Assembly: GCF_003008425.1 (NCBI RefSeq)
Contig: NZ_PXOQ01000009.1
Coordinates: 813,501-877,500 of the forward strand
Direction of reading: 5' to 3'
DNA: 64,000 nt
Source of the DNA: Aurantibacter aestuarii
GTDB lineage: Bacteria > Bacteroidota > Bacteroidia > Flavobacteriales > Flavobacteriaceae
The notes beneath the pieces were generated by a model. It ran no database searches. It saw nothing but the letters and a program-made list of their open reading frames with translations, and had not been told where the DNA came from. Each line of letters opens with the position of its first letter. The first letter of the stretch is position 1. Shown here piece by piece: positions 21,657 through 24,912 of the stretch. The position numbers and the translations under genes are program-made.

Positions 21657-22889
21657 ATGAATGAAGCTTTATTTACAACAAATAATCTTTGGATGATGAT
21701 ATGCATTGCTTTAGTGTTTATAATGCACTTAGGCTTTTCATTATTAGAAATAGGTTTAACCAGATCTAAAAACACCATAAATATTTTGTTTAAAAATGTT
21801 ATGGTAATTATTATTGGGCTTCTAAGCTATACTTTTATTGGTTTTAGTTTAATGTATCCTGGAGAATACTTTTCCGGAATGTTTGCTGGTTTTGCAGGAT
21901 TTGGCGTTAATATCCCTGAAAATGGCTTAACAGCAGAATATTATAATGGACAATATACCTATTGGACAGAGTTTTTATTTCAGGCCATGTTTGCCGCAAC
22001 CGCAGCAACTATTGTTTCTGGTGCAGTTGCAGAGCGAATGAAACTTTCTGCATTTATAATTTTTTCTATAGTCTATGTAGGTGTGGTTTATCCTTTAGTT
22101 GGTATGTGGAAATGGGGCGGTGGATTTCTAGAAGCATTAGGTTTTTATGATTTTGCTGGTTCTACAATTGTACATTCTGTTGGTGGTTGGGCTGCTGTAG
22201 TTGCAGTATGGCTATTAGGAGCAAGAATTGGAAAATTTACAAAAAAAGGAATTGGTGTCATTCCTGGACACAACGTACCATTAGCTACTGCTGGTGTATT
22301 TTTACTTTGGTTTGGATGGTTTGGTTTTAATGGCGGATCAGTATTGTCTGCAAATCCGGGAGCTACTTCTTTAACTTTAGTAACCACTTGTTTAGCTGCT
22401 GCTGGCGGTGGTTTGGGAGCTGCAATTATAGGCTTAATTAAATATAAAGAAAACGATTTATCGATGCTTTTAAATGGTATTCTTGGTGGTTTAGTTGGTG
22501 TTACCGCAGGAGCAGATGTGATGTCGGTTACCGATGCTATATGTGTTGGCTTTATTGCTGGCGGTATTGTTGTTTTTGCAATAAGCTTATTCGATAAATT
22601 AAAATTAGACGATCCTGTTGGAGCTATTTCTGTACATTTATGTTGTGGTATATGGGGTACGTTAGCTGTTGGTATATTTGGAGAATTGGCAAGTTTAAGC
22701 CAATTTTTTAACCAGTTACTTGGTGTAGGTTGTGTTGCAGTTTTCTGTTTAATTACGTCATTTATCATATTAATTCTTTTAAAGAAAACTATTGGTTTAA
22801 GAGTTTCTAGAGCCGAAGAAGTTGATGGTTTGGACGCTCATGAACATGGCATGTCTGCTTATCCATATTTTAGAATAAACGATATTTAG
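21657..22889 (+). CDS. amtB: Ammonium transporter
   Basis: 410 residues, about 11 helices. Amt landmarks include the phenylalanine-gate and twin-histidine regions: TIVHSVGGWAAVV carries the first conserved His, and AISVHLCCGIWG the second. FLLWFGWFGFNGGS is also conserved. It moves ammonium into the cell under nitrogen limitation and is controlled by PII from the preceding gene. Its TAG stop interlocks with the stop of the convergent DUF1684 gene (4-nt overlap), and no terminator hairpin is seen. Confidence 0.95.
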   Translation: MNEALFTTNNLWMMICIALVFIMHLGFSLLEIGLTRSKNTINILFKNVMVIIIGLLSYTFIGFSLMYPGEYFSGMFAGFAGFGVNIPENGLTAEYYNGQYTYWTEFLFQAMFAATAATIVSGAVAERMKLSAFIIFSIVYVGVVYPLVGMWKWGGGFLEALGFYDFAGSTIVHSVGGWAAVVAVWLLGARIGKFTKKGIGVIPGHNVPLATAGVFLLWFGWFGFNGGSVLSANPGATSLTLVTTCLAAAGGGLGAAIIGLIKYKENDLSMLLNGILGGLVGVTAGADVMSVTDAICVGFIAGGIVVFAISLFDKLKLDDPVGAISVHLCCGIWGTLAVGIFGELASLSQFFNQLLGVGCVAVFCLITSFIILILLKKTIGLRVSRAEEVDGLDAHEHGMSAYPYFRINDI

Positions 22890-23491
22890 TGTTTTTTAAA
22901 CGCCTTTACTCCTGCTTCTACTTTTAAATCTAAACTATTCTCTAATGGCACAACCGGACAAGAATATTTAGGGTTATAAGCGCAATACGGATTAAAAGCT
23001 TCATTGAAATCTAAGATTAACATATTAGATGCTGGAATTCTTAATTCAATATAGCGTCCGCCACCATAAGTGGTGTCTCCATTGGTTTCATCTATAAATG
23101 GTAAGAACAAGTAATCCTCATAACCTTCTGTAGTTAATAATTCTTTATTTTGATACACATTAAGCTGGTAAGGTTTCCCTTTTATTTTAAAATGAAGCAC
23201 GCCGTAAACTCTATAAAGCGGCGTTCTACCCGTAGAAGTTTGCATTTCAAAGTATTCTGAATTTGGAGTTGGCTTCAACTCTGCTTCCACTTTAAAATCT
23301 TCATTAAAACCATAAAAATCTAAAGCTTTGAAAGTTTTTAAATCCTTCGCCGTTAAAGGAGATTCTGAAGCGTCTTTAAATTTCGCATTTTGAGACTTCT
23401 GGTAGCTCGTTTCTCCAAGTATTGGTTCTTTCTTTTGAGCACAACTCAAGCTTGTAAAAAGTACAATTATCGGTAGAATTAGGTATTTCAT
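22886..23491 (-). CDS. DUF1684 secreted protein or lipoprotein
   Basis: 201 residues. An N-terminal signal ends around TSLSCAQKK, which could be a lipobox or an ordinary signal cleavage site. The DUF1684 core includes FYGFNEDFKVEAELKP, GGRYIELRIP and the C-terminal NPYCAYNPKYSCPVVP, whose cysteines are conserved in the family. Function is unknown; the location is the cell envelope. It converges on amtB with interlocked stop codons. Confidence 0.87.
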   Translation of the reverse strand: MKYLILPIIVLFTSLSCAQKKEPILGETSYQKSQNAKFKDASESPLTAKDLKTFKALDFYGFNEDFKVEAELKPTPNSEYFEMQTSTGRTPLYRVYGVLHFKIKGKPYQLNVYQNKELLTTEGYEDYLFLPFIDETNGDTTYGGGRYIELRIPASNMLILDFNEAFNPYCAYNPKYSCPVVPLENSLDLKVEAGVKAFKKH

Positions 23492-23569
23492 AGTAAATAA
23501 ATGTTGTTTTGTAAAAATATAATAATAATTACTTATGTTTATACAAAATATTTAAAATCATGACATTTT

Positions 23570-23692
23570 CATACGTCACAACCTTTTGTAAATCGAGAGT
23601 TTCGCTTTTAAGCGGACGTATGTATTTGTTTTTTTAATATAGATATTATAGAAATCAATCTTAAAACGTCCAACTTAATTGTTGGACGTTTT
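23570..23692 (+). promoter_or_regulatory. Structured leader with terminator/antiterminator logic before the MFS gene
   Basis: A closing stem CATACGTC (23570-23577) with GACGTATG (23615-23622) encloses two small hairpins: ACAA/TTGT (23578-23589) and CGCTT/AAGCG (23603-23614). An intrinsic terminator follows at 23663-23692, 26 nt before the MFS ATG. GGACGT (23614-23619), part of the closing stem, is also complementary to ACGTCC (23666-23671) in the terminator's 5' arm. The two folds exclude each other. A promoter-like TTTTG (23507-23511), 22-nt spacer and TATGTTTA (23534-23541) lie upstream. This is the layout of a transcriptional riboswitch or leader attenuator. No known class is recognised. 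A 25-codon frame (23560-23637) overlaps it. Confidence 0.6.
23663..23692 (+). terminator. Strong terminator hairpin in the leader of the MFS gene
   Basis: A perfect 12-bp stem, AAAACGTCCAAC (23663-23674) with GTTGGACGTTTT (23681-23692), loop TTAATT, then the U-rich tail ACTTTTAT. It lies upstream of two divergent genes, so it can only end a transcript that starts inside this intergenic region. Confidence 0.85.
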
Positions 23693-23718
23693 ACTTTTAT
23701 AAACAGATTAATTAGTAC

Positions 23719-24912
23719 ATGAAATCAATAACTACAACATACATAAATACTTTTAAGGGCTTATCTAAAGAGGTTTGGTGGCTAGCTTTAGTAACTTTTA
23801 TAAATAGAGCAGGTACTATGGTTATTCCTTTCTTGTCGCTTTATTTAAGAGAAGATTTAGGATTTAGCTACAAGCAAGTGGGCTGGATTATGGCGTCTTT
23901 TGGTTTAGGTTCTGTTTTAGGTTCTTGGATTGGAGGAAAACTTACCGATAAAATTGGCTTTTATAAAGTAATGACTTACAGTCTTTTTATCTCTGGATTA
24001 CTTTTTATTGGTATACAATTTTTAAACACTTTTATCACTTTGTGTCTTGGTATTTTTATTTTAATGATGATTGCGGATAGTTTTAGACCTGCTATGTTTG
24101 TAGCCTTAAGTACTTACAGTAAACCTGAAAACAAAACCCGTAGCGTAACTTTAATACGTTTAGCCATAAATTTAGGATTTTCTGCAGGACCAGCTATTGG
24201 CGGATTAATTATCTCACAAATTGGCTACAACGGATTGTTTTGGGTAGATGGTTTAACTTGTATACTAGCCACTTTATTATTTATACAAGTTTTAAATCCT
24301 AAAAAAGCACGTATACAGGATGGTATTAAGGTTTTGCATCCCGATTCCGCCTACAAAGATTTTTCTTTTTTATGGTTTTTGGTTGGTTTAGTGTTGTTTG
24401 GAATTGTCTTTTTACAGTATTTTTCAACCATGCCAATTTACTATAAAGATATTCATGGTTTAACCGAATATGAAATTGGTTTACTTTTAGGATTTAATGG
24501 CCTGTTTATTTTCATATTTGAAATGCCTTTAATTAAGTGGCTAGAACATAAAACCTTTACTAAACTTAATTTAATTGCATTTGGTGCTCTATTAACTTTG
24601 CTCAGTTTTGTAGTTATAAATTTAACTGGCTGGTCTGGTATTTTAATAGTTGGAATGTTTTTAATGACTGTTGGAGAAATGATTGCCTTTCCTTTTGCCA
24701 ATGCTTTTGCATTAGAACGCGCTAAAAAAGGAAACCAAGGTGAATATATGGCGTTGTTCTCTATTGCTTTTTCTGCAGGACATATATTTGGTCACAAAAC
24801 AGGTATGGATTTGGTAAGCCTGTTTAATTTTGAAACAACTTGGTACATTATGGCTTTTTTAGGCTTCGTGTGTATGCTGGTTTTTATGTTTTTAAGAAGA
24901 AGAGCAAAATGA
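23719..24912 (+). CDS. MFS transporter (DHA1-like), substrate unknown
   Basis: 397 residues, about 12 helices. The MFS loop 2-3 motif is GSWIGGKLTDKIGFYKVM (about 73-90), and IRLAINLGFSAGPAIGG resembles the motif C region of drug/H+ antiporters. It is therefore an inner-membrane secondary exporter, more likely of a small molecule or drug than a sugar importer. Its expression is probably conditional, because a terminator with a competing leader fold lies just before it. It ends 13 nt before the convergent gene at 24926. Confidence 0.88.
   Translation: MKSITTTYINTFKGLSKEVWWLALVTFINRAGTMVIPFLSLYLREDLGFSYKQVGWIMASFGLGSVLGSWIGGKLTDKIGFYKVMTYSLFISGLLFIGIQFLNTFITLCLGIFILMMIADSFRPAMFVALSTYSKPENKTRSVTLIRLAINLGFSAGPAIGGLIISQIGYNGLFWVDGLTCILATLLFIQVLNPKKARIQDGIKVLHPDSAYKDFSFLWFLVGLVLFGIVFLQYFSTMPIYYKDIHGLTEYEIGLLLGFNGLFIFIFEMPLIKWLEHKTFTKLNLIAFGALLTLLSFVVINLTGWSGILIVGMFLMTVGEMIAFPFANAFALERAKKGNQGEYMALFSIAFSAGHIFGHKTGMDLVSLFNFETTWYIMAFLGFVCMLVFMFLRRRAK

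Follow-up and report, generated by a model that had tools for sequence, protein, structure and literature searches.

The intergenic gap between a divergent DUF1684 gene and an MFS transporter gene in Aurantibacter aestuarii is, with high probability, a ribosome-mediated transcription attenuator in which a leader peptide would switch on the MFS gene (Table 1). Within the window, as the whole 64,000-nucleotide stretch of DNA analysed is called here, a sequence-only reading had favoured the label of an unrecognised ligand riboswitch for this gap and had given leader-peptide attenuation as its alternative. Comparison of relatives partly supports that reading: attenuation before the MFS gene by competing folds is supported, but the ligand riboswitch is not, its stem lying inside a short open reading frame (ORF), the N-terminal core of which evolves as a protein. 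The alternative is the reading backed by the conserved ORF, the selection on its core and the helices, and the positions claimed for the elements were correct to within one or two bases.

The MFS protein is a general member of its superfamily with NorA as its closest solved structure, and the top two NCBIfam models for it (H+ antiporter and multidrug resistance) scored far under their cut-offs. The minimum free energy (MFE) of the 212-nt gap is -48.9 kcal/mol (z = -5.1), a stability equalled by 0 of 200 shuffles, and a search of the gap against its own genome at E <= 0.001 gave one match. A DUF1684 homologue on the opposite strand, at most 2.5 kb upstream, was seen at 67 of the 80 named loci.

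Table 1. Features of the gap and its flanking genes, in positions of the window
Feature	Position	Strand	Basis or remark
DUF1684 gene	22886-23491	-	divergent, upstream of MFS gene
Intergenic gap	23492-23718		flanked by divergent DUF1684 gene and MFS gene
Promoter -7 box-like site, TATGTTTA	23534-23541	+	flavobacterial consensus TAnnTTTG, last base differs
Leader-peptide ORF, 25 codons, MTFSYVTTFCKSRVSLLSGRMYLFF	23560-23637	+	ORF and terminator in 122/146 slices; core selection
Sequestering helix A, 5' arm, CATACGTC	23570-23577	+	MFE fold; family-wide helix
Peptide core, residues 6-15, VTTFCKSRVS (alignment columns 6-16); proposed stall-inducing segment	23575-23604	+	low pN/pS
Antiterminator 5' strand, GGACGT	23614-23619	+	family-wide helix
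Sequestering helix A, 3' arm, GACGTATG	23615-23622	+	MFE fold; family-wide helix
Intrinsic terminator, 13 bp, loop of 6, then T-rich tail	23662-23693	+	pairing in 88 sequences
Antiterminator 3' strand, ACGTCC, also within terminator 5' arm	23666-23671	+	family-wide helix
MFS transporter gene, proposed regulated gene	23719-24912	+	PF07690, 1.6e-52; NorA best solved relative, 1.4e-12

The leader ORF in related genomes

Comparison across relatives was made by MFS orthology in place of a DNA-level search with the gap, which in 397 family genomes was too noisy, 298 of them matching at E <= 0.1; its best foreign match (G016) was the terminator of an orthologous leader, and its matches in G009 and G030 overlap leaders found by the covariance model. 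The comparison covered 146 slices upstream of MFS orthologues, made up of the window, 80 named loci, 29 whole-genome loci and 36 more distant loci, with some genomes represented in two slice sets. A leader was defined by a terminator hairpin and an ORF of 19-33 codons that starts with ATG or GTG and has its stop 20-45 nt before the hairpin.

The 25-codon frame that had been pointed out inside the gap is present, and a leader was found by the above rule in 122 of the 146 slices, of which 115 are distinct (seven identical ones were dropped). Named loci with a leader include those of Tenacibaculum, Polaribacter, Lacinutrix, Algibacter, Psychroserpens and Flavivirga. The distinct leaders are 20-29 codons long, and in 98 of the 115 the stop codon lies 24-29 nt 5' of the terminator. 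An ATG ORF of 19-29 codons at the leader's place occurs in 112 of the 115 real leaders, which had been picked for having such an ORF, compared with 137 of 2300 dinucleotide shuffles (about 6%), and at this chance rate a few of the 122 may be there by chance. Alignment A1, on which the counts for the helices are based, holds 88 of the 115 leaders, the 27 that were near-identical or unalignably divergent having been left out by eye, and its counts are biased towards those members of the family that can be aligned.

The rule found no leader in 24 of the 146 slices. One of them (L058) is uninformative, the locus lying at a contig start with the cut inside the gene, and the covariance model finds a leader there (G052). 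Four others (L050, L083, L118 and L165) resemble leaders on reading of the sequence though the rule rejects them, G014 (L144) was missed by the rule and matched by the model, and ten distant loci (L168-L177) have no visible leader.

The leader of L108 (Arcticiflavibacter luteus) seems to start with GTG and that of L165, as read from the sequence, with TTG, either of which possibly tunes leader translation. A second, overlapping ORF in another frame, about 17-20 codons long and starting with MDL, is seen in L038, L045, L065, L078, L086 and others.

Specificity of the leader for the MFS gene

The covariance model was searched in 149 relatives, a number of genomes at which the tool applies stricter filters, and matched at E <= 1.2e-6 in 42 of them, once in each. 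By their coordinates 41 of these matches directly precede the orthologous MFS gene, and the 42nd (G080) is followed by an MFS start when the locus is read. An MFS orthologue at E <= 1e-60 is present in 68 of the 149 genomes, including all 42 with a match, and no match at E <= 1.2e-6 was found in the 81 genomes without such an orthologue. The remaining 26 orthologue-bearing genomes also have no match at this threshold, though leaders are visible by eye in some. Many of the matched loci are in the training alignment, which makes the sensitivity partly circular; the absence elsewhere is not circular. The next matches start at 3.3e-5, and five of the weaker ones away from this MFS gene (E 3e-5 to 1e-3) were rejected as gene ends beside ordinary terminator-like hairpins.

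A search of Rfam, which the sequence-only reading had proposed, matched no known non-regulatory RNA. At gathering scores it gave nothing for the gap and only two tRNAs for the whole window, and at a permissive threshold the region 23400-23800 gave E values of 0.96 or worse, far below the gathering scores. No match to the gap was found among phages.

A terminated transcript of about 150 nt could itself be the product, as a short RNA or by constitutive partial termination, with the MFS gene expressed through leakage or from its own promoter. The terminator is strong and the DNA would look alike in that case, but such an arrangement leaves no role for the antiterminator pairing or for a selected peptide, and it is very unlikely given that the confident model matches all adjoin this MFS gene and that the spacing between ORF and terminator is near constant.

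Selection on the peptide core

The core of the aligned leaders reads V/I, T/N, I/T, Y/C, K/R, K/Q, Q, a variable residue, T/S and S/T. From 39 independent pairs, the core has a pN/pS of 0.46 (95%, 0.38-0.56) in frame 0, whereas the two alternative frames give 2.01 and 1.49; for the whole ORF the ratio is 0.65 in frame 0, with 0.95 and 1.07 in the alternative ones. Among the segments, frame 0 gives 0.69 for columns 3-5, 0.45 for columns 6-10, 0.41 for columns 11-16, 0.92 for the linker and 0.82 for the C-terminus. These ratios indicate that the N-terminal core is under purifying selection as a protein, and they do not clearly indicate peptide-level selection on the linker and C-terminus. In the C-terminal half, pN/pS is lower in frame 1 (0.71; 95%, 0.57-0.88) than in frame 0 (0.95), a difference for which RNA pairing or an overlapping frame may be responsible.

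This pattern bears on the ligand riboswitch, in which a small molecule would bind a three-way-junction-like fold and tip the choice between terminator and antiterminator, with an ORF present by accident. Competing folds, a terminator platform and an exporter downstream suit such logic, and the lack of a matching known class in Rfam leaves room for a new one. The frame is nevertheless kept across many genera with a core that evolves as protein, and the stretch between the stem arms, as read in A1, varies in both length and sequence where an aptamer would be expected to keep a conserved core, making this explanation highly improbable.

The peptide sequences bear likewise on a classical amino-acid attenuator, in which starvation for a single amino acid would stall ribosomes at its codons and raise MFS expression. 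Its plan of ORF, antiterminator and terminator is identical, and strong hints of such leader-peptide control have been reported for the amino-acid operons of Flavobacterium psychrophilum (PMC9723704). Such an attenuator is, however, quite unlikely here, since the aligned peptides as read have a mixed core and share no run of any one amino acid, and the gene encodes an MFS transporter, with a drug exporter as its best solved relative, and is not biosynthetic.

Competing helices

Sequence comparison shows three conserved helices, and the check for compensatory changes proposed by the sequence-only reading gave clear covariation in the terminator and partial covariation in the antiterminator and sequestering helix A, for which the controls are weaker. 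The terminator, previously described with 12 bp, is present with 13 pairs and a loop of 6; among the 88 leaders of A1 it is paired in 100% of cells, with both sides changed in 8 of 9 pairs. The antiterminator joins the 3' end of the ORF and the spacer to the terminator 5' arm, and helix A joins codons 4-10, approximately, to the last codons. In the window, helix A is an 8-bp stem, a perfect helix in the MFE fold that closes two small hairpins as had been proposed, and the antiterminator core has only 6 bp, formed by the complementary GGACGT and ACGTCC on which the proposed competition between folds depends.

Antiterminator cells in A1 are paired in 84.5% of cases, compared with 31-44% when the pairing is slid by 1-3 columns, and the covariation score is 0.190, compared with 0.027-0.061 after sliding; all five measures exceed every one of 500 shuffles. 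Both sides have changed in 10 of 15 antiterminator pairs, a count that a slide of +1 also reaches, and double-change cells number 24 in the real pairing and 39 at slide +1. Helix A cells in A1 are paired in 80.7% of cases compared with 23-52% after sliding, with a score of 0.276 compared with 0.043-0.165; three of the five measures lie above every shuffle and two do not, and double-change cells number 48 in the real pairing and 54 at slide -2.

Two comparisons that use no alignment, and from which kinship was not removed, gave stronger pairing of each leader with itself: pairing with its own terminator arm has -12.75 kcal/mol and with those of other leaders -11.17 (0 of 5000 permutations), and helix A has -12.0 with its own partners and -9.6 with those of others (0 of 5000 permutations). 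When the ORF alone was folded, the helix A regions were paired in 114 of 115 real leaders, compared with 597 of 1150 shuffles.

One position of the terminator has changed at least 10 times on a tree of 78 MFS proteins built with FastTree. Three independent-pairs tests on this tree yielded 4-5 supported pairs each, too few for significance to be reachable. RNAalifold on the alignment recovered the terminator and not the other helices, which were therefore tested as named structures.

Candidate promoter

A promoter-like pair had been claimed ahead of the element, but sigma-70-type pairs in 22800-24500 occur at chance level, with 6 found and 7.1 expected. The -7 box consensus of flavobacteria is TAnnTTTG (PMC9723704), and exact copies of it lie 15-24 nt 5' of the leader ORF in 90 of the 115 leaders, compared with 3.5 expected from mononucleotide shuffles. 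The window's TATGTTTA, which sits 18 nt 5' of the 25-codon frame, would on this comparison be the likelier promoter signal, and the transcript would start about 14 nt before the leader ORF, judging by the position of the box.

Several relatives (among them L044, L074 and L089) have, by eye, a AAAAATACAACTT-like stretch about 20-30 nt before the leader -7 box. On the opposite strand it forms a TAnnTTTG-like box, perhaps the promoter of the divergent gene.

Ribosome position and proposed mechanism

The effect of a stalled ribosome was computed by removing everything up to 15 nt beyond the first base of the P-site codon and folding the remainder. Among the 115 leaders, a P site placed 11-18 codons ahead of the last sense codon leaves the terminator 5' arm paired with the ORF in 108-110. 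The antiterminator then falls to 78 of 115 at a distance of 10 codons, to 26 at 9, to at most 9 at 8 or fewer, and to 0 at 5 or fewer, so that in these computations the choice of fold depends sharply on the P-site codon. With the ribosome on the stop codon all 115 form the terminator, an outcome almost built into the procedure. In a leader of 25 codons, read-through would thus be permitted by a stall within roughly the first 14, the part of the ORF that contains the selected core.

Once the full terminator is present, the antiterminator survives equilibrium folding in only 22-25 of the 115 leaders, the window not among them. Since the full terminator is favoured at equilibrium in most leaders, the switch must rely on co-transcriptional timing and would be kinetic. 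Of the 115 naked transcripts that extend to the terminator 5' arm, 93 prefer the antiterminator at equilibrium, the window again not among them, and this preference makes the state without a ribosome uncertain.

In the proposed mechanism, a ribosome that translates the leader to its stop would cover the 3' end of the ORF and prevent the antiterminator, so that the terminator would form and transcription would stop before the MFS gene. Without a ribosome, the 5' part of the ORF would pair with its 3' part as helix A, leaving the terminator free to form. A ribosome stalled in about the first 14 codons would block helix A and allow the antiterminator, and transcription would proceed into the MFS gene. 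A translation inhibitor acting together with the conserved nascent core is the probable cause of the stall, and the same compound is probably exported by the MFS protein.

The trigger is most likely a ribosome inhibitor; of the leader attenuators listed before transporter or resistance genes, most sense such inhibitors (PMC5418344, PMC10314930). The +X+ macrolide motif is rarer in the leaders than chance predicts, occurring within residues 2-14 of 13 of the 115 leaders compared with an average of 30.7 and a lowest value of 18 in shuffles, and the trigger is therefore likely to belong to another drug class or to act by another arrest chemistry. A macrolide leader of the MefAL/ErmDL type was rejected for the set on this rarity; the window's own leader has a +X+ motif (K-S-R).

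The balance tips slightly towards a new family of drug-sensing arrest peptides, with a core near V-T-I-Y/C-K-K/Q-Q-x-T-S and unlike +X+, that stall ribosomes with some compound and induce a dedicated MFS exporter in many marine and fish-associated Flavobacteriaceae. If the attenuator works as proposed, many marine flavobacteria have an exporter that can be induced, with a peptide of about 25 residues absent from Rfam as its on-switch. The leader could then readily serve to report on translation inhibitors that occur naturally in the sea, and its peptide, with the constraint mapped to a short core, would be a candidate arrest peptide.

Comparison with known systems

Searches of open-licence PMC papers found no description of the peptide or of a leader attenuator before a flavobacterial MFS gene. 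Within the phylum, leader attenuation has been described for amino-acid operons (PMC9723704) and for tetQ (PMC5418344). The amino-acid operon attenuators of Flavobacterium psychrophilum, from the same family, likewise combine a leader peptide with transcription control, but they precede biosynthetic operons, and the term MFS is absent from the main text of PMC9723704; for Bacteroides thetaiotaomicron, short ORFs within long 5' UTRs have drawn a similar comment (PMC7366714). The tetQ leader of Bacteroides, in the same phylum, is drug-responsive, but as listed in Table 1 of PMC5418344 it controls translation and not transcription and precedes a ribosomal protection gene.

Outside the phylum, the toiL upstream ORF of Escherichia coli is also short and senses ribosome-targeting antibiotics from several classes, but it works on translation and on Rho-dependent termination of a toxin-antitoxin transcript (PMC12121999). 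The bmrB-bmrCD system of Bacillus subtilis likewise places translation-dependent transcription attenuation, induced by ribosome-targeting antibiotics, before a multidrug transporter (PMC4191407, PMC5418344); its sensor is the bmrB gene and its pump an ABC transporter. The mefA leader of Streptococcus mefA/msrD (MefAL) likewise joins ribosome-mediated transcription attenuation and a short leader peptide to an MFS drug-efflux gene (PMC10314930, PMC5418344). The MefAL peptide, MTASMRLR, contains a +X+ macrolide-arrest motif (PMC10314930), whereas the flavobacterial leader has 20-29 residues, is depleted in +X+ and belongs to a different phylum. As these attenuators are described in the cited texts, the plan of the proposed flavobacterial switch is that of the MefAL, ErmK and bmrB attenuators.
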